A stretch of DNA of 64,000 nucleotides, taken from assembly GCA_030698405.1 (NCBI GenBank), contig JAUYMU010000050.1:1-64000 (forward strand), written 5' to 3'. The stretch is from Bacteroidota bacterium (GTDB taxonomy: Bacteria > Bacteroidota > Bacteroidia > Bacteroidales > Prolixibacteraceae). The position numbers were made by a program, and so were the translations under genes. Below, piece after piece: positions 19,248-35,029 of the stretch (position 1 is the stretch's first letter; the number at the start of each line of letters is the position of its first letter). The notes below the pieces were generated by a model. It was not told where the DNA came from. It made no database searches and saw only the letters and a program-made list of their open reading frames with translations.

Positions 19248-19586
19248 AGGGATAATCTGAATATTACCTTAACTGAAGAATATTGAACTAAATTGTTTCC
19301 ATACGGGTTTGAAATTTACCTGCTTGCCTCGTGTCTTTTTTTATTTCAACAAGCTGAAACTATCAATAATCACATTTCGATCAACCCTGTTATTTGAATG
19401 GAGTTAATGCTCCATAATAAGAATGATTGTTTATAACAGGTTGAAATTTATACTTATACGGTATTCATGATCATTTCTAATTTGTTAATGAATCTTACTA
19501 TTTAGAACCTTGTTAAATTCCGTATCTTCTTGTTTTACTGGCCGATCCTTAATACTTTTACCCAAATCATTTTTCAAGCTTTATAT
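19248..19586. other. Non-coding stretch upstream of the propeller cluster
   Basis: A 339-bp AT-rich region with no gene, repeat or strong hairpin that I can support. TTG near 19512 and TATCTTCT near 19525 resemble promoter boxes but are too close together for a confident call. Confidence 0.5.
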
Positions 19587-20801
19587 ATGAAACTATCATC
19601 AGTGATTGTAATTTTATTTGTCTGCCTGTCAGTCACGACAAATGCTCAGGAAGCCACCAAATGGCGTGGCGTGAATTCTTCAGGAATTTACACAGTCGAT
19701 AAACTTTTGAAACAATGGCCGGCCGATGGTCCCCAGATCATTTGGACGTTCGATAAATTGGGTCAGGGATTCTCATCTCCAGCTTTTGCCAACAACAAAA
19801 TTTACATCAACGGAATGGTTGGAGGACAAGCTGTTTTGTTTGTACTCGACCAAAACGGCAAAGAACTTCAGCAATTCAAATACGGAAAAGAGTTCGATAC
19901 CAGTTATCCGGGAACCCGCTCAACACCTACAATTGTTGGCGATCTGGCCTACTTGTTTACTGGTCACGGAAAAATCACTTGTCTGAATTTAACTTCAGGC
20001 AAAGTAGTTTGGGAAAAAGATTGTTTGGCAAATTATGACGCGACAAATATTACCTGGGGCTACACCGAAACTTTGCTTGTTGATGGCGACAAACTATTTG
20101 TTACCCCTGGCGGAAAGACCAATAACGTGATGGCCTTAAACCGCATGACCGGCGAAACCATCTGGTCGTGTCCCGGATTGGGCGAATTGTCGGCTTATTG
20201 CACTCCGCTTTTGATTAAACTTCCAAATCGTCAGTTGTTGGTTACTCACACATTTGGTAACGTATTAGGAATTGATGCTGCAACCGGAAAAATGCTTTGG
20301 AATTTCGGACATCCCAATCAGTGGGCGGTTCATCCAAATACACCAATTTATCATGAAGGTGGCTTGTTCGTTTTCAGTGGATACGGACAGGGTGGTGAAA
20401 AACTTAAACTAAGTGCCGACGGAAGTTCAGTTACTAAAGAATGGGAAATCAAAAGCTTCGATAGTCGTCAGGGAGGAGCTGTTTTGATCAACGGTTACCT
20501 TTATGGTTCGGGCGACAAGGATCGCAGCTGGCAGTGTATCGATTGGAAAACCGGCGATCAGAAATATTCGTCAACCGAAATGGGTAAAGGCGTGAGCATC
20601 GCCGCCAACGATAAATTGATTGGTTATTCTGAAAAGGGCGAACTGTTTATGGCTGAAGCAGATCCAACTGCTTTTAAAGTAATCAGCAACACAAAAGTAA
20701 CGTTGGGTGCCGAGCAGCACTGGGCTCACCCTGTAATAAATAAAGGCATTTTGTATGTTCGTCACGGTAATGTGTTGATTGCCTATAAAATTTCAGAATA
20801 A
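19587..20801 (+). CDS. Secreted PQQ-like beta-propeller protein 1
   Basis: A 404-residue exported protein: signal peptide IVILFVCLSVTTNAQ, then a WRG motif (ATKWRGVNSSGIY) and WPADGPQIIW, followed by repeated blades with the PQQ-like core (SGKVVWEK, TGETIWSC, TGKMLWNF, TGDQKYSS). This WRG/WP...GP start is typical of PQQ-binding-like propellers of unknown function. The cofactor-contacting residues of true PQQ dehydrogenases cannot be assigned, and no PQQ biosynthesis gene is in the window. It is the first of three similar secreted propellers in tandem (13 bp to the next). I chose the ATG at 19587 because it gives the signal peptide. A role in periplasmic binding or electron transfer is inference from the neighbours. 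Confidence 0.82.
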   Translation: MKLSSVIVILFVCLSVTTNAQEATKWRGVNSSGIYTVDKLLKQWPADGPQIIWTFDKLGQGFSSPAFANNKIYINGMVGGQAVLFVLDQNGKELQQFKYGKEFDTSYPGTRSTPTIVGDLAYLFTGHGKITCLNLTSGKVVWEKDCLANYDATNITWGYTETLLVDGDKLFVTPGGKTNNVMALNRMTGETIWSCPGLGELSAYCTPLLIKLPNRQLLVTHTFGNVLGIDAATGKMLWNFGHPNQWAVHPNTPIYHEGGLFVFSGYGQGGEKLKLSADGSSVTKEWEIKSFDSRQGGAVLINGYLYGSGDKDRSWQCIDWKTGDQKYSSTEMGKGVSIAANDKLIGYSEKGELFMAEADPTAFKVISNTKVTLGAEQHWAHPVINKGILYVRHGNVLIAYKISE

Positions 20802-20814
20802 ATCAACTTAAAAT

Positions 20815-22053
20815 ATGAAACAGTTAACCCTTACGTTTACACTTCTTTTACTTGTGCTAATTGTATTTGCACAACCTGTACAATGGCGCGGACTTAACCG
20901 AGACGGTAAATTTGCGGATACCGGCTTGCTTAAAAAATGGCCTGATGCAGGTCCCGAATTATTGCTGAAAGTTGAAGGAATCGGTAAAGGATATTCGTCG
21001 GTTGTAGCAACCGATCAGTATATTTTTGCCTCCGGAATGATTGATACTCTGGATTATCTTTCATGCATTACTCCTGATGGTCAGACCAAATGGAAAGTAG
21101 CGTATGGCCGTTCGTGGGCAAAATCGTTTCCGGATACCCGCAGTACTCCGACCATTGAAGATGATCGTATTTACATTATCAGCGGATCCGGAGAGCTGGT
21201 CTGCCTGAATGTAAATGACGGGGCAATCCGCTGGAAAGTGAATGTGGACAAGGATTTTGAAGCTGAATGGCACATTTGGGGTGTATCAGAATCGCCGCTC
21301 ATTGTGGATGATAAAGTGATTTGTACTCCTGGCGGTGCCAAAACTTCGGTGGTTGCATTCGATAAAATGACCGGGAAACCAGTTTGGCAAAGTGAGAGCG
21401 TGGGCGGTCCACGTTCGTATGTTTCTCCAATAATTTATAAATACAAACAATTCAGATATATTCTGGCAGTTACCGGAACTCATTTAATTGCACTCGAACC
21501 GGCAACCGGCAAAGTGGTTTGGAACTTCAAATACTGGGATGGCGAAAAATGGGACCAACCCGGCCTGATCTGGACCAATACGCCAACCATCAAAGGACGC
21601 GATATCTTTTTGTCGATGGGGTATGATTATCGTAATGCGATGGTTCAGATGAGCGAAGATGGAATGTCGGTTACCGAAAAATGGAGCAACATGACACTCG
21701 ATAACCACCACCACGGACTCATCGAACTCGACGGTTTTGTCTATGGTTCGAACTGGGAAAACAACAGCAAAGGCAAATGGGTTTGCATGAACTGGGAAAC
21801 CGGCGATGTGAAATACGAAACCGAATGGGTCAATAAAGGTTCACTGGTTTACGCCGATGGTATGTTTTATATTATGGAAGAAAAAGCAGGAACTGTTGCA
21901 TTGGTGAAACCCGATCAGAATAATTTTGAAGTTATAAGTTCATTTAAATTGAAGGGAGGAAGCGGTCCATACTGGTCGCACCCGTTTATTGCAAACGGAA
22001 AAATGTATTTGCGACACGGCGATGTTTTGTTTGTGTATAATATTAAAGCATAA
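20815..22053 (+). CDS. Secreted PQQ-like beta-propeller protein 2
   Basis: A 412-residue paralogue of the preceding gene, exported by the signal peptide LLLLVLIVFAQ and starting with PVQWRGLNRDGKF. Blades show the W-capped repeats NDGAIRWKV, TGKPVWQS, TGKVVWNFKYW and TGDVKYETEW. It ends SHPFIANGKMYLRHGDVLFVYN, nearly the same closing blade as its two neighbours. A HNWENNSK-like segment (GSNWENNSKGKWVCMNWETG in the sequence, about 310-330) is shared with protein 3. It is translated from the same operon as protein 1. The function is unknown. Confidence 0.82.
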   Translation: MKQLTLTFTLLLLVLIVFAQPVQWRGLNRDGKFADTGLLKKWPDAGPELLLKVEGIGKGYSSVVATDQYIFASGMIDTLDYLSCITPDGQTKWKVAYGRSWAKSFPDTRSTPTIEDDRIYIISGSGELVCLNVNDGAIRWKVNVDKDFEAEWHIWGVSESPLIVDDKVICTPGGAKTSVVAFDKMTGKPVWQSESVGGPRSYVSPIIYKYKQFRYILAVTGTHLIALEPATGKVVWNFKYWDGEKWDQPGLIWTNTPTIKGRDIFLSMGYDYRNAMVQMSEDGMSVTEKWSNMTLDNHHHGLIELDGFVYGSNWENNSKGKWVCMNWETGDVKYETEWVNKGSLVYADGMFYIMEEKAGTVALVKPDQNNFEVISSFKLKGGSGPYWSHPFIANGKMYLRHGDVLFVYNIKA

Positions 22054-22081
22054 TAAACTCCATTTACGATTCAATTATTTA

Positions 22082-22129
22082 CTATTTACGATTTTAATGG
22101 TGAATGGTAAATAGTTAAATCGTAAATAG
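22082..22129. repeat. Inverted repeat between propeller genes 2 and 3
   Basis: CTATTTACGATTT (22082-22094) is perfectly complementary to AAATCGTAAATAG (22117-22129), in a 90-bp gap made of degenerate atttacgatt units. It could be a hairpin in the operon transcript, but there is no T-run. Confidence 0.55.
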
Positions 22130-22143
22130 CTAAATGATCGACG

Positions 22144-23382
22144 ATGAAATTACTTTTGTTTTTACTGATCTTTTTTCTTACCGGAAGCTTGTTTGCCCAG
22201 GATCTGGTTGAATGGCGTGGACCGAATCGTTCCGGAATTTATGCTGATCAGAATCTACTGAAAAGCTGGCCTGAAAATGGTCCTACGCTCTTACTGGAAC
22301 TGAATGATATCGGGAATGGCTATTCGTCGCCTGTAGTTTATGAAAATACGATTTATGTAACCGGCAGAAAAGATACACTTGATGTGGTTTCGGCCTACGA
22401 AATGAACGGTAAAAAGAAGTGGGAAACCGCTTATGGCCTTGCCTGGGCGCGCACTTATCCTGAAACACGCTGTACTCCAACGATTGAAAATAACCGTATT
22501 TACCTGATTAGCGGAATGGGCGAAGTTGCATGTGTTGATGCAATTTCAGGAAAACCAATATGGACGGTTGATGCCAACAAAGATTACAAGGGTGAGCCGC
22601 ACCGCTGGGGAGTTGCCGAGTCGCCTGTAGTTTCAGATAAAGCTGTATTTTATGTAACTGGCGGTGACGAAACTACCGTGGTTGCACTCGATAAAACCAA
22701 TGGCAAACTGCTCTGGAAAACAAAAAGTTTGGGTGGCTCACGCGCATATGCTTCTTCTTTAATCATCGAAAAAGCAGGATTACGATTGCTGCTGGCTCAA
22801 ACGGCTAACGATTTACTGGCCGTTAACATCGATAATGGCGAAATTGTATGGACTCACAACCTGATTCAGTATCACATTAATCAGCAGGGCAAAGGTGGAA
22901 ATACGAATACGCCACTTTATTATAACAATGAAATTTTCGTAACAAGTGGATACGATCATGCGGCAGTTTTATTAAGTCTGGCTGATGATGGACGGTCGGT
23001 TTCGTTAAAATGGACCAATCCCGATTTTGACAGTCACATGGGTGGCGCGGTTAAAATTGGCAATCATTTGTTTGGGTCAAACTGGAAGAACAACAGCAAC
23101 GGCAATTGGATTTGTGTTGACTGGAACACCGGAAAAACCATGTATGATTCGCACTGGTTTAACAAAGGGCCAATCATTTCGGCTGACGGAATGCTATATT
23201 GTTACGAAGAGAAATCAGGACATTTGGCGCTTGTTAAACCCAATCCTGAAAAATTTGAAATCATCAGTTCATTCAAAATTAGCAAAGGTTCAGGTCCACA
23301 TTGGGCACATCCTGCTATTTTCGACGGAAAACTGTTTGTTCGTCACGGCGAATATTTGGCGGTATATAACCTGAAGAATTAA
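22144..23382 (+). CDS. Secreted PQQ-like beta-propeller protein 3
   Basis: A 412-residue paralogue of proteins 1 and 2, with signal peptide LLIFFLTGSLFAQ, WRG start (LVEWRGPNRSGIY), WPENGPTLLLEL and blades SGKPIWTV, NGKLLWKT, NGEIVWTHN and TGKTMYDS. It is closest to protein 2 by eye: same length, same GSNWKNNSNGNW region and the same RHGEYLAVYN end, suggesting a recent duplication. The DUF1016 nuclease gene starts only 7 bp after its stop, as if inserted in the operon. Confidence 0.82.
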   Translation: MKLLLFLLIFFLTGSLFAQDLVEWRGPNRSGIYADQNLLKSWPENGPTLLLELNDIGNGYSSPVVYENTIYVTGRKDTLDVVSAYEMNGKKKWETAYGLAWARTYPETRCTPTIENNRIYLISGMGEVACVDAISGKPIWTVDANKDYKGEPHRWGVAESPVVSDKAVFYVTGGDETTVVALDKTNGKLLWKTKSLGGSRAYASSLIIEKAGLRLLLAQTANDLLAVNIDNGEIVWTHNLIQYHINQQGKGGNTNTPLYYNNEIFVTSGYDHAAVLLSLADDGRSVSLKWTNPDFDSHMGGAVKIGNHLFGSNWKNNSNGNWICVDWNTGKTMYDSHWFNKGPIISADGMLYCYEEKSGHLALVKPNPEKFEIISSFKISKGSGPHWAHPAIFDGKLFVRHGEYLAVYNLKN

Positions 23383-23389
23383 AATTTGT

Positions 23390-24454
23390 ATGAAATATAA
23401 AATCTCAGATCCGCAATATAACAACTGGATTTTGCAGCTAAAGCAAAAGTTTCAGCAAACCCAGATTAAGGCTGCAGTACAGGTCAATCAGGAGTTGCTT
23501 AAATTCTATTGGGAATTGGGTGCAGAAATTGTCGAAAAGCAAGAACAGACCGAATGGGGAAGTAAATTTCTGAACCAGTTGAGTGATGATTTGCAAAGAG
23601 AATTTCCTGAGGTAAAGGGTTTTTCATTAACTAACATTAAATATATTCGACAGTGGTATTTGTTTTATAACCAGGATATTGTAATTGGTCAACAACTTGT
23701 TGACCAATTGCCGGATCGAAATATTGATCAGCTTTTCCAAATTCCCTGGGGTCATAATATTGCTATTTATTTAAAATGCAAAACGATTCCAGAAGCTCAA
23801 TATTACGTCTCAAATACGATTCGTTACGGGTGGAGTAGGGCGGTATTGGTACATCAAATCGAATCGAATCTTTACTTTCGCGACGGGAAATCTATTTCAA
23901 ATTTCAGTAAAACTTTGCCAGCGTATCAATCCGATTTGGCTCAGCAAACACTGAAAGACCCTTATGTTTTTGATTTTTTAACCATGCGTGCCGATTTCAA
24001 TGAACGGGAACTGGAGAAAAGCCTGATTGACCACATCACTAAATTTCTTCTTGAACTGGGTGCCGGATTTGCGTATATGGGAAATCAGGTTCCACTAAAG
24101 GTCGGTAGCCGTGATTTTTCAATTGACTTGCTATTTTATCAAACACGTCTTCATTGTTATGTGGTAATAGATTTGAAAAAAACTGATTTTGAACCGGAAC
24201 ATGCCGGAAAAATGAATTTCTACATAAAAGCAATTGATGAGCAATACAGACAAATTGGCGATGAACCAACAATCGGTTTAATACTTTGTAAAAGCAAAGA
24301 TAAAGTGGTGGCAGAGTATGCTTTAAGCGACATCAATAAACCAATGGGAATTTCTGAATATCATCTGACAAATATTTTACCCGATAACCTGAAACCAAGT
24401 TTGCCAACCATTGAAGATATTGAAGCAGAGTTTAATAAGGAAATCGACAGATAA
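23390..24454 (+). CDS. DUF1016 (YhcG-like) PD-(D/E)XK nuclease-family protein
   Basis: A 354-residue protein with the two parts of the DUF1016/YhcG family: an N-terminal helical domain (about 10-160: AAVQVNQELLKFYWELGAEI, then FPEVKGFSLTNIKYIRQWYLF) and a C-terminal PD-(D/E)XK-like nuclease domain (about 190-340). There the Asp and ExK-type residues lie in GSRDFSIDLLFYQTRLHCYVVIDLKK. The family often sits near restriction-modification or mobile DNA, and its role is not settled. It sits between propeller genes with 7-bp and 14-bp gaps, so it is co-transcribed, but nothing links it to electron transfer. I take it as an insertion into the cluster. Confidence 0.88.
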   Translation: MKYKISDPQYNNWILQLKQKFQQTQIKAAVQVNQELLKFYWELGAEIVEKQEQTEWGSKFLNQLSDDLQREFPEVKGFSLTNIKYIRQWYLFYNQDIVIGQQLVDQLPDRNIDQLFQIPWGHNIAIYLKCKTIPEAQYYVSNTIRYGWSRAVLVHQIESNLYFRDGKSISNFSKTLPAYQSDLAQQTLKDPYVFDFLTMRADFNERELEKSLIDHITKFLLELGAGFAYMGNQVPLKVGSRDFSIDLLFYQTRLHCYVVIDLKKTDFEPEHAGKMNFYIKAIDEQYRQIGDEPTIGLILCKSKDKVVAEYALSDINKPMGISEYHLTNILPDNLKPSLPTIEDIEAEFNKEIDR

Positions 24455-24468
24455 TATACTAAAAAATC

Positions 24469-25887
24469 TTGGAAAAGAATATCAAATACATTCTGTGGTC
24501 GGTTAGCGGTGTAATGCTGATCCTTTTTTTCTGGTGGCTCCTGAAAGACCCAACCAACCAGTTTGTTGAAAGCATTCCCGGAGAGGACAATAAAGGCGCC
24601 GATTCAACAATGATGGACGTTGTAAACATCGGCGAGAATTTCGAATTGTTCGGAACTTCAACATCTAATTTAAAAGGAATCTGGCCTCGTTTCCGTGGAG
24701 CTGATTACGACAATATTGTAAAAAACTCAAGCCCGCTTAAAAACTCATGGTCTGGCGATCAGCCTGAAATTTTGTGGTCGGTTGAATTGGGCGAAGGCCA
24801 TGCGGGACCTGCCATTTATGAGGGAAAAGTTTATTTGATGGATTATGATGAAACGTCACGCGAAGATGCCTTGCGCTGTTTTTCGCTTGAAGATGGCAAG
24901 GAACTTTGGAGGCGTTCGTACAAATTGAGCATCAAACGAAATCATGGAATGTCGCGCACGGTTCCCGCCATAACTCCTGAATATGTGTTGACCATTGGAC
25001 CACGCTGCCACGTGATGTGCGTGAAGCGTGAAACCGGTGATCTGGTTTGGGGGCTCGACATGGTTCAGAAATACCAGACCGAGGTACCGCTGTGGTTTAC
25101 CGGACAATGCCCGATGATCGACGGAAATAAAGCGATTCTTGCTCCTGGTGGAACTTCCGTAATGATTGCAGTTGATTTGGCCACGGGCGAAGTTTTATGG
25201 GAAACTCCAAATCCGGGCGGGATACAAATGTCGCACTCTTCAATTGTTCCCTGGACTTTTAACGGCAAGAAAATGTATGTATATAGCGCTGTTGGGGCAG
25301 TAATTGCCGTGTCAGCAGAAGGCGATGATGAAGGCAAAATCCTTTGGCAGTCAACTGCCTGGAACCATTCGGTGGTTGCTCCGGCTCCGGTTTGTTTCCC
25401 CGATGGGAAAGTATTTTTAACTGCCGGATATGGCGCCGGAAGTATGATGATTCAGGTAACTCCTTCAGGAGCAGAATATAAAGTTGATGTTTTAAAAGAA
25501 TTCAGCCCGAAGGATGGAATGGCTTGCGAACAGCAGACTCCTGTTATTTGGGACGGGATGATGTTTGGAATTCAGCCCAAAGATGCAGGCCCGCTGCGTA
25601 ACCAATTGGTATGTGTTTCTCCGGATGATGTCACCAAAATCGTCTGGACTTCAGGAAAAGAAGGCCGTTTTGGTCTGGGACCATACCTGATTGCCGATAA
25701 TAAGATGTATGTGCTAAGCGATGATGGAACGCTGACGATGATTAAACCTGACAGTAAAAAGTACGTTCAAATGGCGCAGAAAAAACTGTTCGACGGGCAC
25801 GATGCCTGGGGACCGATGGCCATTGCCGATGGGCGCTTGCTGTTGCGTGATGCGAAAACAATGTATTGTGTAAACATTAGCCAATAA
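24469..25887 (+). CDS. Membrane-anchored PQQ-like beta-propeller protein 4
   Basis: A 472-residue protein with one N-terminal transmembrane segment (about 7-24, ILWSVSGVMLILFFWWLL), a linker of about 50 residues and a PQQ-like propeller starting WPRFRGADYDNIV. Blades show DGKELWRRSY, TGDLVWGLD, TGEVLWETPN and GKILWQST. The start must be the TTG at 24469: a stop lies at 24460-24462 and no ATG or GTG occurs before the membrane segment. It is divergent from propellers 1-3, with cysteines in RCHVMCVK. Position directly before the NHL and Tat Fe-S genes suggests it is the membrane partner of that module. Confidence 0.82.
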   Translation: MEKNIKYILWSVSGVMLILFFWWLLKDPTNQFVESIPGEDNKGADSTMMDVVNIGENFELFGTSTSNLKGIWPRFRGADYDNIVKNSSPLKNSWSGDQPEILWSVELGEGHAGPAIYEGKVYLMDYDETSREDALRCFSLEDGKELWRRSYKLSIKRNHGMSRTVPAITPEYVLTIGPRCHVMCVKRETGDLVWGLDMVQKYQTEVPLWFTGQCPMIDGNKAILAPGGTSVMIAVDLATGEVLWETPNPGGIQMSHSSIVPWTFNGKKMYVYSAVGAVIAVSAEGDDEGKILWQSTAWNHSVVAPAPVCFPDGKVFLTAGYGAGSMMIQVTPSGAEYKVDVLKEFSPKDGMACEQQTPVIWDGMMFGIQPKDAGPLRNQLVCVSPDDVTKIVWTSGKEGRFGLGPYLIADNKMYVLSDDGTLTMIKPDSKKYVQMAQKKLFDGHDAWGPMAIADGRLLLRDAKTMYCVNISQ

Positions 25888-25891
25888 AACT

Positions 25892-26854
25892 ATGAACCGG
25901 AAACTGGTAAATATCGTATTGATCGTTCTTGCTGTCGCAATTGTGGTTGTTATAGGCAAAGATTTTATCGGGAAGAAAGCCGGGAAGAACATTGAAAATC
26001 CCTACGAATACAATATTGATGAATTTCGGCAGGTGGACTCGACCCAGATTTTATATACTGAAACGCTGAATTTTCCGGTCAAAGTTCACGATTGGGGCGG
26101 AATAACCGTGTCGGATTCAATGATTATTGTGGCTACAGCCAATGAGTTAATCAGGTTTGATTATTCAGGAAAAGAAATATTGCGCAAATCGTTGATTGAC
26201 AGCGCAACCTGCGTAACCATTGACGATAATCGCCAGATTTGGATTGGGATGCGCCATTATGTGGTGATGTACGACCTGAACGGAACGCTGGTGAAACGCT
26301 GGAATTCGTTTGGCGACCGGTCTGTAATTACATCGCTGGCTGTTTCCGGAGAAAATGTATATGTGGCTGATGCCGGAAACCGGATCGTTTATCAGTGCAA
26401 TACCAACGGACAAATTATGCAGAAAATAGGGGAGAAGAATGAGCAAAAAGGGATTTCTGGATTTGCAATTCCAAGCCCGTATTTTGATGTGGCTATTGAC
26501 GACGGTGGTTTTTTATGGGCGGCAAATACCGGAAAGCATACTTTCGAGAATTACAATCCGGATGGTTCGCTGCGCACATCGTGGGGAATAACCAGTTTCA
26601 AAGTTGAAGGTTTCAGCGGTTGCTGCAATCCGGCGCATATTTCAATTTTGGATGATAATTCATTCATCACCAGTGAAAAAGGAATGCCTCGAATCAAGAT
26701 ATACGATCAGCATGGACAATTCACCGGTGTGGTCGCGCCACCGGCGGCATTCAATGGTTCATTGGCACCCGATATTGCGGTGGACAAACTGCACCGGGTA
26801 ATTGCCCTCGATTTTGAACGCCAGCAGGTAAGAATTTTTGAAAAGAACGATTAA
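25892..26854 (+). CDS. Membrane-anchored NHL/six-bladed propeller protein
   Basis: A 320-residue protein with an N-terminal anchor (IVLIVLAVAIVVVIGKDFIG) and an NHL-like propeller. Blades end in VADAGNRIVYQCNTNGQIM, AANTGKHTFENYNPDGSLR and a DLNGTLVKRW strand. The segment GFSGCCNPAHI carries a vicinal Cys pair, unusual for the fold. It starts 4 bp after propeller 4 and is followed at once by the small Tat protein, so the genes are translationally tight. NHL propellers bind proteins or act as a platform; a specific function is not visible. Confidence 0.78.
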   Translation: MNRKLVNIVLIVLAVAIVVVIGKDFIGKKAGKNIENPYEYNIDEFRQVDSTQILYTETLNFPVKVHDWGGITVSDSMIIVATANELIRFDYSGKEILRKSLIDSATCVTIDDNRQIWIGMRHYVVMYDLNGTLVKRWNSFGDRSVITSLAVSGENVYVADAGNRIVYQCNTNGQIMQKIGEKNEQKGISGFAIPSPYFDVAIDDGGFLWAANTGKHTFENYNPDGSLRTSWGITSFKVEGFSGCCNPAHISILDDNSFITSEKGMPRIKIYDQHGQFTGVVAPPAAFNGSLAPDIAVDKLHRVIALDFERQQVRIFEKND

Positions 26855-26855
26855 A

Positions 26856-27068
26856 ATGAACGATCAAAAAAACAACCGGAGAGATTTTTTCAGAAAAGCT
26901 GCGCAGCTAACTTTTCTGTCAGCCATGATTGGCGGTTCGGCCTATTTGCTGGCCGAAGACCGGGTTCAGTTGGAAGGTTGCGGCGATAATCAGTTTTGCA
27001 AAAAATGCCAGAAAATAGCGACTTGTTCGTTGGATCAGGCTAATAAATACAGAAAAGATGAGCGATAA
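26856..27068 (+). CDS. 70-residue Tat-exported protein with a symmetric four-Cys motif
   Basis: A very small protein with a twin-arginine signal (NNRRDFFRKAAQLTFLSAM). After cleavage only about 35-40 residues remain, carrying four cysteines with mirror spacing, C-x5-C-x2-C-x5-C (GCGDNQFCKKCQKIATC), and a charged tail. The Tat route means it probably folds round a cofactor in the cytoplasm first, most simply an Fe-S cluster or another metal. I know no family name for it. It overlaps the Tat ferredoxin gene by 11 bp, so the two are probably co-translated and may act together. The ATG at 26856 is preferred to the upstream TTG because it gives a standard Tat leader. Confidence 0.72.
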   Translation: MNDQKNNRRDFFRKAAQLTFLSAMIGGSAYLLAEDRVQLEGCGDNQFCKKCQKIATCSLDQANKYRKDER

Positions 27069-27651
27069 AAATGAACCCAAAAGCATAGAGCGCCGTCGGT
27101 TTATCCGCAGCGGGATGCAAATGGCGCTGGCTGTTTCGCTTGGCGGTGTGGCTGGTGTTTCGTTCCTGAATGCGACTCCCAAAGATCTGGTTTGGCAGAT
27201 CGATCCTTTCAAATGTGTGCAATGCGGGCGCTGTGCCACCGAATGCGTAATGACGCCTTCAGCAGTAAAATGCGTGCATGCCTACGCTTTATGCGGCTAT
27301 TGCGACTTGTGTGGCGGATACCTGAAACCCGATGCGAATGCCCGTAGCACGGCTGCCGAAAATCAGCTTTGCCCAACAGCCGCCATCAAACGTAAATTTA
27401 TTGAAGAACCTTATTACGAGTACGAAATCATCGAAGATCTGTGCATCGGTTGTGCCAAGTGTGTGGCCGGTTGTACTGCATTCGGAAACGGGTCGTTTCA
27501 TTTGCAGATTCGTCATAACTTGTGCAAAAATTGCAACGACTGCGCCATTGCACGAGTTTGTCCGGCTGAAGCTTTTGTGCGCGTTCCGGCTGATACACCC
27601 TATTTAATTAAGGGTGATTTTACCAAAGGCGGCAAAGGGAAGAACGCTTAG
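27058..27651 (+). CDS. Tat-exported multi-[4Fe-4S] ferredoxin (NapG-like)
   Basis: A 197-residue protein with a Tat signal (IERRRFIRSGMQMALAVS) and four Cys-rich motifs: CVQCGRCATEC, CVHAYALCGYCDLC, CIGCAKCVAGC and CKNCNDCAIARVC, each linked with the lone Cys of another motif as in NapG/MauM ferredoxins that carry four [4Fe-4S] clusters. NapG-type proteins pass electrons from a NapH-type quinol-oxidising membrane protein to a periplasmic acceptor, and a NapH-like gene follows at 28756. No NapA/B nitrate reductase is nearby, so the acceptor here is different. Repeats and an ORF6N gene now separate the pair. Confidence 0.88.
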   Translation: MSDKNEPKSIERRRFIRSGMQMALAVSLGGVAGVSFLNATPKDLVWQIDPFKCVQCGRCATECVMTPSAVKCVHAYALCGYCDLCGGYLKPDANARSTAAENQLCPTAAIKRKFIEEPYYEYEIIEDLCIGCAKCVAGCTAFGNGSFHLQIRHNLCKNCNDCAIARVCPAEAFVRVPADTPYLIKGDFTKGGKGKNA

Positions 27652-27682: not shown

Positions 27683-27769
27683 GAATTTCTAAGATCACAA
27701 ATTGTGACCATAGAAAAGGAGTTGAAAATTTTGAGGAGCAATTTTAGCACCTTAAACAGTAGAGGGTGA
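27683..27769 (+). pseudogene. ORF6N-domain gene fragment 1
   Basis: The frame from 27683 to the TGA at 27767 reads EFLRSQIVTIEKELKILR followed by SNFSTLNSRG. The intact ORF6N gene at 28242 has LRCNFSTLETTGRGK at the same place, and the DNA shares 17 bases (gcaattttagcacctta). It is a short remnant of the central ORF6N segment directly before composite repeat copy 2. Confidence 0.5.
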
Positions 27770-27783
27770 CCAAGTCGTTTTGA

Positions 27784-27907
27784 GACACTGAAAGTGTCAA
27801 ATATGAATAACCACGGGTAAAGCGAAGCGGAACCCGTGGATAAGATGAAGAAAACATTACCGTCCGCGCAGGAATGATCAACAGAGAAATATTCTGATTG
27901 CGGACGG
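27784..27907 (+). repeat. Composite hairpin repeat, copy 2 (tail type B2)
   Basis: Hairpin 1 is GACAC-tgaaa-GTGTC (27784-27798), the linker is CAAATATGAATAA, hairpin 2 is CCACGGGT/ACCCGTGG (27811-27818, 27832-27839) and the tail 27860-27907 is bounded by CCGTCCGC/GCGGACGG. It is almost identical to copy 3, 209 bp downstream. Confidence 0.8.
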
Positions 27908-27921
27908 GAGGAGAATATTGA

Positions 27922-27978
27922 TATTTTGAGTGGGGTCGTTTGAGGTTGCAAATTGAAACCTCAAGTAGTGGAGGATGA
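27922..27978 (+). pseudogene. ORF6N-domain gene fragment 2
   Basis: The frame reads WGRLRLQIETSSSGG then a stop, close to the LRSQxETSSWGG stretch common in the middle of ORF6N proteins. It sits just before composite repeat copy 3, as fragment 1 sits before copy 2. It is short, so the identification is tentative. Confidence 0.4.
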
Positions 27979-27992
27979 CCAAGATATTTTGA

Positions 27993-28116
27993 GACACTGA
28001 AAGTGTCAAATATGAATAACCGCGGGTAAAGCGAAGCGGAACCCGTGGATAAGATGAAGAGAATATTACCGTCCGCGCTGAAATGATCAACAGAGAAATA
28101 TTCTGATTGCGGACGG
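27993..28116 (+). repeat. Composite hairpin repeat, copy 3 (tail type B2)
   Basis: Same order as copy 2: GACAC/GTGTC (27993-28007), CCGCGGGT with ACCCGTGG (28020-28027, 28041-28048, one G-T pair) and tail CCGTCCGC/GCGGACGG (28069-28116). Few differences from copy 2 by eye, so it is a recent duplication or paired insertion. Confidence 0.8.
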
Positions 28117-28241
28117 AGTGAGAAAATCAAATAAAAGAGATAGGTTATCTCGATTTGTGATAAGCTGTAAGAATCAGGATAAGAAAAAATATAGGAATTG
28201 GATTATTAGGGCGAATTTGTAAAATGCTAAGAACCGAATAA

Positions 28242-28769
28242 ATGCAACTCGAAAAAATTCAAACGAAGATTTACGAAATCCGGGAACAGAAAGTTATGCT
28301 GGATTTTGACCTTGCTGAACTTTATGAGACTGAAACAAAATATCTAAAAAGGGCAGTAAAGGTTAATATTAAAAGGTTCCCTCCTGATTTTATGTTTGAG
28401 CTCACCAAGCTTGAATATGATTCTCTAAGGTGCAATTTTAGCACCTTAGAAACTACAGGCAGGGGAAAGTACGCTAAATATTTGCCTTTTGCCTTCACTG
28501 AGCAGGGCGTTGCAATGTTGAGTGGTATTCTTAATTCGGATAAAGCAATTGAAGTCAATATTTCAATTATGAGAGCTTTTGTTTTTGTGCGACAATATGC
28601 TTTGTCCCATAAAGATTTGACTGCAAAATTACAGGAACTTGAGAACAAATATGACAAACAATTTAATGACGTGTATGACGCCATAAACTTTCTGCTTCAA
28701 AAAGACAATCAGGAAACAGAGCAAAAACTGCGTAAACGAATAGGTTATAAAAATGATGAGACTAATTAA
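28242..28769 (+). CDS. ORF6N domain-containing protein
   Basis: A 175-residue protein with an N-terminal ORF6N domain (about 5-105: IREQKVMLDFDLAELYETETKYL, then RFPPDFMFELTKLEYDSL and LPFAFTEQGVAMLSGIL). A C-terminal coiled coil (LTAKLQELENKYDKQFND) and a basic end (KLRKRIGYKND) follow. The family is related to phage antirepressors and is common in mobile or variable regions of Bacteroidota; its role is unknown. Its last 14-17 bases overlap the start of the NapH-like gene. Upstream lie two fragments of related genes and two composite repeats, so this locus has seen repeated insertions. Confidence 0.9.
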   Translation: MQLEKIQTKIYEIREQKVMLDFDLAELYETETKYLKRAVKVNIKRFPPDFMFELTKLEYDSLRCNFSTLETTGRGKYAKYLPFAFTEQGVAMLSGILNSDKAIEVNISIMRAFVFVRQYALSHKDLTAKLQELENKYDKQFNDVYDAINFLLQKDNQETEQKLRKRIGYKNDETN

Positions 28770-30024
28770 ACGATATTTTTTACTGGTTTCGATACTGCTA
28801 TACATGGCAGTTCAATCTTTTGCTGCCGATCCGCAACAGCGGTTCCCGAAACCGGAATTTGATACTGGCTATATTCAGCCTGATACCAAAGCGCCATCAG
28901 CCCGAATGATATTTCTGGAATATTTCGATGTGCTGGTATTGTTGGTGGTACTGTCGCTGGTTACCTGGTTTGTGCTGAAAAAACGCTCCCGAAAAGGTGT
29001 TTTCTGGATTTCTGTTTTCACTTTGCTGTACTTCGGTTTTTACCGCGAAGGTTGCATTTGTTCCATTGGGGCTATTCAGAATGTGGTGTTGGGAATTGTC
29101 GATCCCACTTATGCCATCCCACTTACAGCCTTGTTGTTTTTCCTGATTCCGCTTGTTTTTACACTTTTCTTCGGAAGGACATTCTGCGCCGGGGCTTGTC
29201 CGCTTGGAGCCATTCAGGATATTGTAGTTTTGAAACCCATCGAATTGCCCAAATGGATTCAGAAAGTGTTGGGTTTAATTCCGTATTTGTACCTCGGTTT
29301 GTCGGTTTTATATGTGGCCACCAAATCCGAATTTATCATCTGCCGTTACGATCCGTTTGTCGGACTATTCCGGTTCGATGCACCATTTAATATGCTGATA
29401 TTGGGAGCTTTATTTCTGGCAGTCGGCGTTTTTGTTGCCCGTCCGTATTGCCGGTTCTTTTGTCCTTACGGAGTTTTATTGGGTTGGATGTCGAAGTTTT
29501 CGTCCAAACACATGACCATCACACCTTCAGCATGTATTCAGTGTAAATTGTGTGCAAATTCTTGTCCGTTTGGTGCCATCGACGAACCGGTAGTTGAAAC
29601 CGGAAAACGCCGCAGCAATGTGAACCGCCTGATGACATATTTTGTGCTTCTGCCTTTGTGGGTTGGAATTGGCGGGTTTGCCGGTTCGATGATGCATGTG
29701 CCTTTGTCCAGATTTAACCAGACTGTTTATCTGGCCGAACAAATTGTGGAGCATCCTGAAGTGAAGAATGATCCTAAAAATATTGATGTCCGGACCTTTA
29801 TGGGTTCCGGAAAATCGACCGAACAATTGGTGGTTGAAGCGGATGCCATTCGCAACCAATTCTATTGGGGTGGTTGGTTGCTGGGTGGTTTCATGGGATT
29901 GGTGATCGGTACAAGCCTGATCGGTTTATCGAAATTCAGGAAACGCGAAGACTGGGAACCCAACAGAACCAATTGCCTGAGTTGTGCACGCTGCATGGAT
30001 TATTGCCCGGTGAAGAAAGAATAA
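28756..30024 (+). CDS. NapH/NosR-like membrane polyferredoxin
   Basis: About 422 residues with a signal-like start and five or six transmembrane segments. Two CxxxCP motifs characteristic of the NapH/NosR group are present (GRTFCAGACPLGAIQD and YCRFFCPYGVLLGW), plus a cytoplasmic-type [4Fe-4S] motif CIQCKLCANSCPFGAI and a last Cys-rich end NCLSCARCMDYCP. An extra pair, EGCICSIGAIQN, precedes them. NapH oxidises menaquinol and passes electrons to NapG. There is no FMN-binding domain, so it is not full NosR. It is the natural partner of the Tat ferredoxin at 27058. The start at 28756 (or 28753) lies inside the ORF6N gene. Confidence 0.87.
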   Translation: MRLIKRYFLLVSILLYMAVQSFAADPQQRFPKPEFDTGYIQPDTKAPSARMIFLEYFDVLVLLVVLSLVTWFVLKKRSRKGVFWISVFTLLYFGFYREGCICSIGAIQNVVLGIVDPTYAIPLTALLFFLIPLVFTLFFGRTFCAGACPLGAIQDIVVLKPIELPKWIQKVLGLIPYLYLGLSVLYVATKSEFIICRYDPFVGLFRFDAPFNMLILGALFLAVGVFVARPYCRFFCPYGVLLGWMSKFSSKHMTITPSACIQCKLCANSCPFGAIDEPVVETGKRRSNVNRLMTYFVLLPLWVGIGGFAGSMMHVPLSRFNQTVYLAEQIVEHPEVKNDPKNIDVRTFMGSGKSTEQLVVEADAIRNQFYWGGWLLGGFMGLVIGTSLIGLSKFRKREDWEPNRTNCLSCARCMDYCPVKKE

Positions 30025-30202: not shown

Positions 30203-32026
30203 ATGGATAAAATTAAACTGGCACAACAGGTTGCCTGGATCGCCGCAGGATTTGCCCTTGTTTTGGCCATTTTGCTGATTATCAATTATGTGCAGACAAG
30301 TTTCAACGATCCGATTGAGAACCAAACTATTCCGGCACTGGTAAAACGGCTAAGCGAAAATCCCGGAGACGAGGCTTTGAAAGCCGAAATCCGTGCCTTC
30401 GACCTGATGGCCCGGAAAGCCTATTTTACAAGTCAGTGGCAGTTGCGCACCGGAACTTACCTCATGTTTCTCGGGGTAATTATTTCTATTCTGGCCGTGC
30501 GCTTTGTATTGTCGGCCAAATCGAAACTGAATGAAATCGACAGTGTTGAAAAAGTCAGTGAACTTGATAAACTGGTGGCTCAAAAATGGGTGATTTATGT
30601 CGGTTCAGTTTTAATAGTTCTGGCGCTTGCCGCTGGATTATTATCGTCCAATTCGCTGGAAAAGTACATGGTCAACGAAAATCTGGTTGTTCAGGAAGAA
30701 CAGCCTGCAGAAATAGCTGTTGCTGAAAATGCAGAACCGGCTGTTGCTCCTGAAGATTCATCAGTTACAACCGTTGATGTTCAGGTTGCGGAAATTCCTG
30801 TTACGACTGATGTTCCGGTAACAAATATTGAAACTGTTGCCGCTCCTGCACCAGCCGGTATACCAACACTGGCGCAGTTAAAAGCCAATTATCCGTTCTT
30901 CCGCGGCGCTGAAGGAATTGGGGTGGCGGCTCAAAAAAATACGCCAACCGACTGGAATGGCGCCGGAGGTAAAAATGTAATCTGGAAAGTAAAAGTTCCA
31001 AAATCCGGCTACAGTTCACCCATCATTTGGGGGAACCAGTTGTTTGTGACCGGAGCAGATGCGCAGGTTCGCATGGTTTATTGTTACGATAAAAATACCG
31101 GAAAATTGCTTTGGGAAGCTTCGGCTGATAATATTCAAGGTTCGCCGGCTTCAGCACCCAAAGTGACTGCCGATACGGGTTTGGCAGCACCAACCATGGC
31201 AACTGACGGTCGCGCGGTATTTGCCATTTTCGGAACAGGCGATGTGATTGCCCTCGATATGAGCGGAAAACGTTTGTGGGCGCGCAATCTGGGTGTTCCT
31301 GACAATCATTATGGACATTCTTCGTCGCTGATCATTTACAAAGACAAATTGTTGATTCAATACGATACCAACCGTTCAGGAAAGCTTTTGGCTTTGGCCA
31401 CTCAAACTGGTGCAACCGTTTGGGAAACTGTCCGCGCTTCAAAAGTATCGTGGTCGTCGCCGATTCTGGTAAATACAGGAAGTCGCATGGAACTGATTTT
31501 AACGACCAACCCAAATGTAAATTCATACAATCCTGAAACCGGAAAAGAACTTTGGAACATTGCCTGTCTTTCCGGAGAAGTTGGCCCATCAGCCGGATAT
31601 GCTGACGGGATGGTGTTTGCCGCCAACGAATACGCGAAACTGGTTGGGATAAAGATTGGTGCAACTACAGAAATAGTTTGGGAAGCCGACGAATATTTGC
31701 CTGAAGTTTCGAGCCCGCTGGCAGTAAACGGATTGCTTTATATTGCAACTACTTACGGCGTTTTTACCTGTCTTGATGCCAAAACCGGTGAGAAGCACTG
31801 GGAACAGGAATATGGCGATGCCTTTTATTCGTCGCCAATTTATGCCGATGGAAAAGTTTACATCACCGACATGTCGGGCAAAACGCACATTGTAAAAGCA
31901 ACCAAAGACTATCAGTTGATCGGAACTCCTGAACTGGGCGAAAAATCAGTTTGCTCGCCTGTGTTTGCAGATGGAAAGGTGTATTTGCGCGGAATGAATA
32001 ACTTGTATTGTTTGGGGGCAAAATGA
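30203..32026 (+). CDS. Membrane PQQ-like beta-propeller protein 5
   Basis: A 607-residue protein with three transmembrane segments: about 12-30 (IAAGFALVLAILLIINYV), 85-103 (YLMFLGVIISILAVRFVL) and 132-150 (YVGSVLIVLALAAGLLSS). A Val/Glu/Pro-rich linker (about 160-225) leads to a PQQ-like propeller that begins YPFFRGAEG. Blades carry TGKLLWEA, TGATVWET, TGKELWNI and TGEKHWEQEY. Topology puts the propeller outside the inner membrane. It is the last gene of the one-strand cluster and may dock the secreted propellers to the NapH-like protein. That role is inference. Confidence 0.82.
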   Translation: MDKIKLAQQVAWIAAGFALVLAILLIINYVQTSFNDPIENQTIPALVKRLSENPGDEALKAEIRAFDLMARKAYFTSQWQLRTGTYLMFLGVIISILAVRFVLSAKSKLNEIDSVEKVSELDKLVAQKWVIYVGSVLIVLALAAGLLSSNSLEKYMVNENLVVQEEQPAEIAVAENAEPAVAPEDSSVTTVDVQVAEIPVTTDVPVTNIETVAAPAPAGIPTLAQLKANYPFFRGAEGIGVAAQKNTPTDWNGAGGKNVIWKVKVPKSGYSSPIIWGNQLFVTGADAQVRMVYCYDKNTGKLLWEASADNIQGSPASAPKVTADTGLAAPTMATDGRAVFAIFGTGDVIALDMSGKRLWARNLGVPDNHYGHSSSLIIYKDKLLIQYDTNRSGKLLALATQTGATVWETVRASKVSWSSPILVNTGSRMELILTTNPNVNSYNPETGKELWNIACLSGEVGPSAGYADGMVFAANEYAKLVGIKIGATTEIVWEADEYLPEVSSPLAVNGLLYIATTYGVFTCLDAKTGEKHWEQEYGDAFYSSPIYADGKVYITDMSGKTHIVKATKDYQLIGTPELGEKSVCSPVFADGKVYLRGMNNLYCLGAK

Positions 32027-32671: not shown

Positions 32672-35029
32672 GTGAACAACGAAACGAACATACAACAAAC
32701 GGTTGACGATATCATCGCTAAAAAAGGCGTGGAGGGGAAATCCGTCATTCCGATTTTGCAGGCGATTCAGGATACATTCAATTACCTTCCGGAGGAAGCG
32801 CTGAAATACGTTTGCGAAAAAACAGAAATTACTCCGGAACAGATTGTCGGGGTGGCTTCGTTCTATTCGCAATTCAGGATGCAGCCGGTTGGCGAACACA
32901 TTATCAAGGTTTGCGTCGGAACGGCTTGCCACGTGAAAGGTGCAGGGCAGGTTTACGATGCCTTACGTCGCCATTTTAACTTGACAGGACACGAAGAAAC
33001 CGATGTTTCCAGAAAATATACCCTTGAAAAAGTCTCGTGCCTCGGTTGCTGTACCCTGGCGCCGGTGGTTCAGATTGACGAAATAACTTATGGGCACGTC
33101 GCTTCAGATAAAGTTGGCAATGTTGTCGCCGATTTCGAAAAACATGCCGGAATTTCAGGAGCAAAAAAAGGATTGTTCCGGAATGTGGACGGACAGGAAA
33201 TTCAAGGCGAAATCCGCATTGGGCTCGGTTCGTGCTGTGTGGCTTCCGGAAGTGAGGATGTTAAAAAAGCTGTGGAAGAAACGATTGCTGACACCGGTAT
33301 TAAAATCAGCCTTAAAAATGTAGGCTGTGTGGGCATGTGCCATCAGGTTCCGCTGGTCGAAATTATTCCGCTTAACGAAAAGCCAACCCTGTATGCCAAG
33401 GTAAAACCCGAAGAAATAGAAGGAATTATTGCCAATCATTTTAAACCTCAAAGTACGTTTGGAATGCTCAAAAGCAGCGTTTACAAATTCTTCGAGAGTG
33501 TTCAGACTGACACTGTTTGGGATGGTGTTAAGCAATATTCGATCGATGCCCGCGAAAAACAGGTAACCGATTTTCTGGATCGCCAGATTCCGATAGCTAC
33601 CCAATACCGCGGAGTTATCAATCCGCTCGACATTGAAGAATACAAGAAACACGAGGGTTTTGCAGCCATGAAAACCTGTCTTACAGAATTGTCTTCCGAA
33701 GAAATTATAGAGTCCATCAAAGATAGCGGACTGCGGGGGCGGGGAGGAGCAGGTTTCCCAACTGGCCTGAAGTGGAGTTTGGTCGCTGCAAATAAATCGG
33801 CGGTAAAATATCTGATTGTCAATGGCGATGAAGGTGATCCTGGCGCATTTATGGATCGTATGTTGCTCGAATCGTATCCCTATCGGGTGATAGAAGGCAT
33901 GGTGATTGGCGCAAAAGCAGTTGGTGCAACACATGGTTATTTTTATATCCGCGCCGAATATCCACTTGCAGTGAAACGCATTCGCCAGGCGCTGATTTAT
34001 TGCCGGGAAAACAATTATCTGGGCGAAAATATCATGGGTTCAGGTTTTTCTTTTGATGTAGAAATTTATGAAGGTGCGGGCGCTTTTGTGTGTGGCGAAG
34101 AGTCGGCGCTGATGGCTTCCATTGAAGGCGAACGTGGTTTTCCCCGCATTCGTCCGCCATTTCCGGCTGTAAGCGGTTTATGGAAGCAACCCACACTAAT
34201 TAACAATACTGAAACTTTTGCGCAGGTTTCATATATCATTCGCGAAGGATCGGGCAGGTTTTCATCCATCGGATTGGGAACCAGCAAAGGGACAAAAGTT
34301 TTTGCCCTCACCGGGAAAGTTAACCGTGGCGGCTTGATTGAAGTGCCAATGGGAATTACTGTTCGCCAGATTGTGGAAGATATCGGCGGCGGTGTGCAGA
34401 ATGGCAAAAAATTCAAGGCGGTACAAATTGGCGGTCCTTCCGGAGGTTGCGTTCCGGCGCAGTTGTATGATACACCCATTGATTACGAATCATTGCTCGA
34501 AGTGGGTGCAATGATGGGTTCCGGTGGGTTGGTAGTGCTCGACGAAGACGACTGCATGGTGGACATTGCCCGCTATTTTCTTTCGTTTACCCAGAACGAA
34601 TCCTGCGGAAAATGCACCTTCTGCCGAATCGGAACCAAACGAATGCTCGACATACTGACCAAAATTACCACCGGAAAAGGGACTTTGAAAGATTTGGATG
34701 AACTGGAATACCTTGCGGGCTGGACAAAAAAAGGAAGTTTGTGCGGTTTGGGAAAATCGGCGCCAAACCCGATTCTGTCAACCTTAAAATATTTCAGGGA
34801 AGAATACATTGCGCACATCAACGGCAAATGCCCATCAGGCAAATGCCAGAGTATGATCAAATATCAGATCAACGATTTGTGCATAGGCTGCACCAAATGT
34901 GCACAAAAGTGCCCGACAGACGCTATTCTGTTCAAGCCGCACGAAAAGCACGAGGTCATCACCGACCTCTGCATCAAATGCGATGCCTGCCGTCTGGTTT
35001 GTCCGGTTGATGCGGTGGAGATTGTTTAG
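32672..35029 (+). CDS. NuoE-[2Fe-2S]-NuoF-ferredoxin fusion (NADH-oxidising flavoprotein)
   Basis: A 785-residue fusion of four modules. Residues 5-155 are NuoE-like (ligands Cys81, Cys86, Cys123, Cys127). Residues 180-255 are a second thioredoxin-like [2Fe-2S] domain (Cys188/189, Cys219, Cys223). Residues about 290-695 are NuoF-like, with GLRGRGGAGFPTGLKW and NGDEGDPGAFMDRM for NADH/FMN and SCGKCTFCRIGT for [4Fe-4S]. Residues about 725-785 are a 2x[4Fe-4S] ferredoxin (CIGCTKCAQKCP, CIKCDACRLVCP). Such subunits serve NAD(P)-linked [FeFe]-hydrogenases and bifurcating enzymes, but no hydrogenase or NuoG-like gene follows; hemF is next. The start is GTG. Its partner is unknown; it could feed electrons between NADH, ferredoxin and the membrane cluster just upstream. 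Confidence 0.88.
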   Translation: MNNETNIQQTVDDIIAKKGVEGKSVIPILQAIQDTFNYLPEEALKYVCEKTEITPEQIVGVASFYSQFRMQPVGEHIIKVCVGTACHVKGAGQVYDALRRHFNLTGHEETDVSRKYTLEKVSCLGCCTLAPVVQIDEITYGHVASDKVGNVVADFEKHAGISGAKKGLFRNVDGQEIQGEIRIGLGSCCVASGSEDVKKAVEETIADTGIKISLKNVGCVGMCHQVPLVEIIPLNEKPTLYAKVKPEEIEGIIANHFKPQSTFGMLKSSVYKFFESVQTDTVWDGVKQYSIDAREKQVTDFLDRQIPIATQYRGVINPLDIEEYKKHEGFAAMKTCLTELSSEEIIESIKDSGLRGRGGAGFPTGLKWSLVAANKSAVKYLIVNGDEGDPGAFMDRMLLESYPYRVIEGMVIGAKAVGATHGYFYIRAEYPLAVKRIRQALIYCRENNYLGENIMGSGFSFDVEIYEGAGAFVCGEESALMASIEGERGFPRIRPPFPAVSGLWKQPTLINNTETFAQVSYIIREGSGRFSSIGLGTSKGTKVFALTGKVNRGGLIEVPMGITVRQIVEDIGGGVQNGKKFKAVQIGGPSGGCVPAQLYDTPIDYESLLEVGAMMGSGGLVVLDEDDCMVDIARYFLSFTQNESCGKCTFCRIGTKRMLDILTKITTGKGTLKDLDELEYLAGWTKKGSLCGLGKSAPNPILSTLKYFREEYIAHINGKCPSGKCQSMIKYQINDLCIGCTKCAQKCPTDAILFKPHEKHEVITDLCIKCDACRLVCPVDAVEIV

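Follow-up and report, generated by a model that had tools for sequence, protein, structure and literature searches.

What is a 70-residue protein with four cysteines and an export-type leader doing immediately upstream of an exported polyferredoxin in a member of the Prolixibacteraceae? The gene lies in a window of 64,000 nucleotides, by which we mean the whole stretch of DNA analysed, and it is surrounded by genes for propeller proteins, a NapH-like membrane protein and a NADH-type flavoprotein module. We propose, with a probability of roughly 0.6, that the small protein is a stable anchor and an additional, putative metal-site subunit of a periplasm-facing Fe-S electron-transfer complex, where it would most likely act as a [4Fe-4S] relay. 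The features on which the argument draws are the following.

19530..23382, + strand: three exported PQQ_2-type propellers (19530-20801, 20815-22053 and 22144-23382), members of a family that relatives keep at the cluster's upstream end too
24469..25887, + strand: membrane-anchored PQQ_2-type propeller, conserved neighbour
25892..26854, + strand: membrane-anchored propeller of the NHL type, a conserved neighbour in which a Cys-Cys pair is invariant
26856..27068, + strand: small four-Cys protein of 70 aa, probably anchored (translation, dN/dS, profile matches)
26877..26891, + strand: twin-arginine-like motif RRDFF, residues 8-12 of the small protein (sequence context NRRDFFRK)
26898..26951, + strand: hydrophobic segment AAQLTFLSAMIGGSAYLL, residues 15-32, proposed uncleaved membrane anchor
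26979..27026, + strand: C-x5-C-x2-C-x5-C, putative metal-site motif, residues 42-57
27058..27068, + strand: 11 bp shared by the small-protein and ferredoxin genes (ORF coordinates)
27058..27651, + strand: Tat-type exported polyferredoxin with which the small protein is partnered; four [4Fe-4S] clusters would account for 16 of its 17 near-invariant Cys
28753..30024, + strand: NapH-like membrane 4Fe-4S protein (NapH models)
30203..32026, + strand: membrane-anchored PQQ/BamB-type propeller, conserved neighbour
32672..35029, + strand: NuoE-NuoF-ferredoxin fusion similar to the HydBC/StnAB bifurcating module, a neighbour in 63 of 80 loci

A conserved four-cysteine gene in a conserved operon

Translation of the forward-strand frame at 26856-27068 gave MNDQKNNRRDFFRKAAQLTFLSAMIGGSAYLLAEDRVQLEGCGDNQFCKKCQKIATCSLDQANKYRKDER, with the exact pattern C42-x5-C48-x2-C51-x5-C57 within CGDNQFCKKCQKIATC, as a first-pass annotation of this DNA had described it. 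The overlap that it reported with the ferredoxin gene was also confirmed: the stop codon falls 11 bp into the gene starting at 27058. The same annotation had named beforehand two results that would speak against it, a frame that is not conserved and homologues that do not keep the cysteines, and we found the opposite of both. The frame is kept in 16 same-genus orthologues with a dN/dS of 0.05-0.15, which establishes that the ORF is coding and under strong purifying selection. All four cysteines were retained in 28 of 28 profile matches among 295 genomes of the order, and at every one of the 32 loci looked at around two deeper families (three of these loci are common to both sets). In an initial search, 19 of 22 other genomes of the genus had an orthologue, and weaker matches extended across the family and order. 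Because only R8 and the four cysteines are invariant in an alignment of 74 sequences with a mean column identity of 40%, and because the profile search behind the 28 matches made no demand for cysteine, this conservation is not due to chance.

The mirror symmetry of the cysteines pointed out in the first-pass annotation is usual but not strict. Of 132 distinct sequences, 129 have x5 as the first spacing and the other three have x4, in a count whose pattern itself required the downstream x2 and x5. At two divergent loci the same genomic place is occupied by C-x2-C-x5-C-x5-C (L189) and by H-x4-C-x2-C-x5-C plus further cysteines (L146). The C-x2-C-x5-C core looks like the rigid part of the motif. 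A phylum-wide profile search gave weak matches alone outside the order, and relatives were not found in viral contigs. Pfam and NCBIfam hold no family for the small protein or its 74 relatives, and the PDB holds no sequence relative of it. Literature searches returned no description of the protein or its operon, an absence that is not proof.

Synteny was compared across 80 loci with flanks of up to 10 kb, many of them from named organisms of the Prolixibacteraceae and relatives. The order was constant: PQQ_2 propellers, a membrane-anchored PQQ_2 propeller, an NHL-type propeller, the small protein, the ferredoxin, the NapH-like protein and a further PQQ propeller. It is found, for example, in Draconibacterium orientale, Mariniphaga, Sunxiuqinia and Maribellus. 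Downstream of the last propeller lies the NuoE-NuoF-ferredoxin protein in 63 loci and a second flavoprotein in 56; the best matches of these two are HydB/StnB- and Stn/Nfn-type subunits of electron-bifurcating enzymes, of which the Stn enzyme has been described (PMC10482914). The second flavoprotein is not adjacent in the window; a different contig of the genome carries its best homologue (L203). The protein encoded at 28753-30024 is related to NapH/MauN without being a member by cut-off (TIGR02163, 39.7 bits, E 3.8e-10; cut-off 213.05). In the NHL-type propeller at 25892-26854, a vicinal cysteine pair (GCCNP) is invariant in all aligned relatives, with or without the small protein.

In the window, an ORF6N-domain gene (28242-28769) is inserted into the operon, and between it and the ferredoxin gene are two direct copies of a 189-nt repeat (27730-28127; 86% identical, spacing 209). 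A YhcG-type PDDEXK nuclease gene (DUF1016; 23390-24454) that is absent from most relatives sits amid the propeller genes.

Co-occurrence and natural fusion with the ferredoxin

Of the 295 genomes from the order, 48 have the ferredoxin, and 28 of those have the small protein as well (25 as its own gene, three fused). The 247 genomes that lack the ferredoxin gave three weak leader-type matches to the small-protein profile and otherwise none. Among the remaining 20 ferredoxin genomes, two have variant cysteine arrangements and 18 have no small protein, which makes it an accessory to the ferredoxin complex, and one specific to it. The NHL and ferredoxin genes directly adjoin in several of these 18 genomes. 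We considered whether the small protein supplies cysteines absent from the ferredoxin and rejected this idea, as the 17 near-invariant cysteines of the ferredoxin are the same with and without it. The ferredoxin had been called NapG-like, and this holds as a resemblance alone: it scored 10.4 bits (E 0.34) against the MauM/NapG model TIGR00397, for which the cut-off is 178.85. Its structure prediction was poor (mean pLDDT 41) and was left out of the argument. At one locus (L059, 9058-10001), a short-nuclease-like gene, of DUF559/Vsr type by eye, stands between the small-protein and ferredoxin genes, so the two genes need not overlap.

In some relatives the two proteins are made as one chain. 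At L184, L188 and L190, a single frame runs from the leader through the hydrophobic segment and the four-Cys tail into the ferredoxin core, these parts taking the place of the leader that the ferredoxin otherwise has. Among the 32 loci inspected in the two families searched, 21 were fused and 11 separate; the 21 fused relatives span three families of the order, and their single ORFs measure about 211-237 aa or more. In the family of genome G546, all 11 profile matches sit in ferredoxin-length frames. Three genomes (L265, L266 and L267) carry a single ORF of 642-661 aa comprising the small protein, the ferredoxin and the NapH-like protein; these triple ORFs still contain the former NapH signal-like segment internally. 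The genomes behind all triple ORFs and most of the fused ones are fragmented and probably metagenome-assembled, and some fused ORFs have an internal ATG just upstream of the ferredoxin core. Sequencing error is possible for any single fused ORF but hardly accounts for 21 of consistent architecture. We regard natural fusion as the decisive evidence that the small protein is a partner of the exported Fe-S protein. Together with the strict co-occurrence and the synteny, it strongly supports the partnership with the Tat ferredoxin that the first-pass annotation had suggested. A permanent fusion would also place the cysteine tail on the ferredoxin side, between the membrane and the first cluster. 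In a family with fused forms, one ferredoxin (L187) has a small-protein-like leader region but no cysteine motif, which suggests secondary loss of the site.

Leader and membrane topology

The genome encodes TatC (E 6.9e-65), and the window protein and 21 of 21 fused forms have an N-terminal twin arginine ahead of a hydrophobic segment. Among 97 distinct stand-alone orthologues, the twin position was RR in 51, RK in 40 and something else in six, and, counting the rows of the ferredoxin tree to which a label could be assigned, the pair changed at least seven times. The ferredoxin leader, in contrast, is RR in essentially all loci. All 21 fused chains kept RR and had no other leader, whereas RR was found in 51 of the 97 stand-alone proteins; this is the difference expected if the ferredoxin's own RR can serve both proteins. 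The description of the small protein as Tat-exported fits the sequence in the window, but nearly half of the stand-alone orthologues have lost the pair.

The hydrophobic 18-mer is more constant, being present in 97 of 97 stand-alone proteins. An AxA-like cleavage motif between the hydrophobic core and the first cysteine was found in only 23 of them, and the linker to the first cysteine has a median length of nine residues. An AlphaFold2 model of the small protein contains a helix at residues 7-33, with a mean pLDDT of 86-90 over residues 11-30, and is of low confidence over the cysteine tail; this low-confidence model had no fold match in the PDB. On the strength of the infrequent cleavage motif, the short linker and a confident helix followed by an uncertain tail, the small protein looks like an uncleaved signal anchor in the membrane. 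A cleaved mature form of 35-40 residues, as had been supposed from the sequence of this one gene, is not supported. Rieske proteins offer a precedent for an Fe-S protein whose Tat-type signal is kept as a membrane anchor (PMC3623810). They share with the small protein the N-terminal Tat-type signal that would be retained, but the small protein is far smaller, and we do not place it among them: it has four cysteines and no conserved histidine, and it lacks the Rieske boxes C-x-H ... C-x2-H.

The cysteine site and its place in the complex

In the mechanism that we propose, the N-terminal hydrophobic segment would stay in the membrane as an uncleaved anchor, and the tail of about 38 residues would lie on the outer face, with its first cysteine about nine residues from the membrane. 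The four cysteines would form a fifth metal site beside the four [4Fe-4S] clusters of the ferredoxin. This site would most likely be a [4Fe-4S] cluster held by C-x2-C-x5-C and the upstream cysteine, and it would act as an electron relay that connects the NapH-like membrane protein with the ferredoxin or leads on to the propeller proteins. The metal or Fe-S site postulated in the first-pass annotation fits the invariance of the cysteines; the identity of the metal stays a prediction. That it is most likely [4Fe-4S] is suggested by the context and by a weak likeness of the C-x2-C-x5-C-x-L core to the N5 site of NuoG and [FeFe]-hydrogenases (PF10588). The letters of the core are similar, but N5 has His-x3 before the core where the small protein has Cys-x5, and no NuoG domain surrounds the latter. 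PF10588 gave one match among the 74 members, at E 0.077, and none was significant against the 27-bit threshold. In column shuffles, scores as high as the real one came up in 5 of 300 and 30 of 300 cases. Suggestive as the letters are, we treat the resemblance as analogy and not as homology.

The four cysteines, all within 16 residues, could instead bind Zn(II) and fold a short tail that merely docks and anchors the ferredoxin, with no part in electron transfer. Such a structural role would suit a site that 18 of the 48 sampled ferredoxin genomes do without, and whose absence leaves the cysteine set of the ferredoxin unchanged; the histidine that L146 offers in place of the first cysteine would also be compatible with zinc. 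We nevertheless consider zinc unlikely, because the site of the fused chains lies directly between the membrane and the first ferredoxin cluster, a useful spot for a relay, and because C-x2-C-x5-C is a known [4Fe-4S] spacing in the N5 region. Thiol chemistry appears less probable again. It would have the inner C-x2-C act as a redox disulfide while the outer pair closes a loop, so that electrons are passed as thiols in the periplasm. The tail probably lies there, and the neighbouring NHL propeller has an invariant Cys-Cys pair. The fusion partner, however, is a four-cluster ferredoxin and not a thioredoxin-like protein, and all four cysteines are found in every regular member; L189 relocates one of them, which is more like a metal site.

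Least probable, and in our judgement very unlikely, is an escort function, in line with the maturation partner put forward in the first-pass annotation. The small protein would then work on the ferredoxin as a transient chaperone, inserting a cluster or proof-reading Tat export. The genes overlap and are probably co-translated, and the leader resembles that of the ferredoxin (weak profile matches to ferredoxin leaders). Fixation of the fusion in the family of G546 nevertheless points to a permanent domain, the fused ferredoxin has no other leader, and a permanent fusion argues against either a transient chaperone or a free carrier. With the appearance of an uncleaved anchor added, neither the carrier nor the maturation partner first suggested is favoured.

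The NapG/NapH, NosG/NosH and MauM/MauN modules likewise encode a Tat-type exported polyferredoxin together with a membrane 4Fe-4S protein, but the present neighbours are propellers and a bifurcating NADH module, and both proteins score far below the family cut-offs. We know of no four-Cys anchored mini-subunit in those modules. The whole is a variant of NapGH-like exported ferredoxin modules, and the small protein in it is not described by any library model. Two other small families were considered and set aside. TIGR02811, the formate dehydrogenase region TAT target, is also a tiny protein with a Tat-type leader beside redox genes; five of the 74 members touched the model, none significantly (best E 0.028), and formate dehydrogenase was not among the conserved cluster neighbours. 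HiPIPs are small exported Cys4 proteins too, but the spacing here is x5-x2-x5, the small protein is probably anchored and not soluble, and none of the 74 members had a HiPIP Pfam match.

More tentatively, and we would call this possible rather than likely, the tail may be a minimal Cys4 [4Fe-4S] site, 16 residues long and about nine from a single span, and act as the relay nearest the membrane in an undescribed transmembrane conduit in Bacteroidales. Such a conduit would join a cytoplasmic Stn-type bifurcating transhydrogenase, via the NapH-like protein and the four-cluster exported ferredoxin, to periplasmic beta-propellers. The single-chain fusions are ready constructs for purification and make metal content and topology directly testable. 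The family is easily overlooked when labelled 'hypothetical' or taken for a bare Tat leader, yet it belongs to a conserved electron-transfer operon of sediment and environmental Bacteroidales, cultured strains of Draconibacterium, Sunxiuqinia, Mariniphaga and Maribellus included, and it probably adds one more metal site, likely iron-sulfur, to an undescribed electron-transfer complex of this order.
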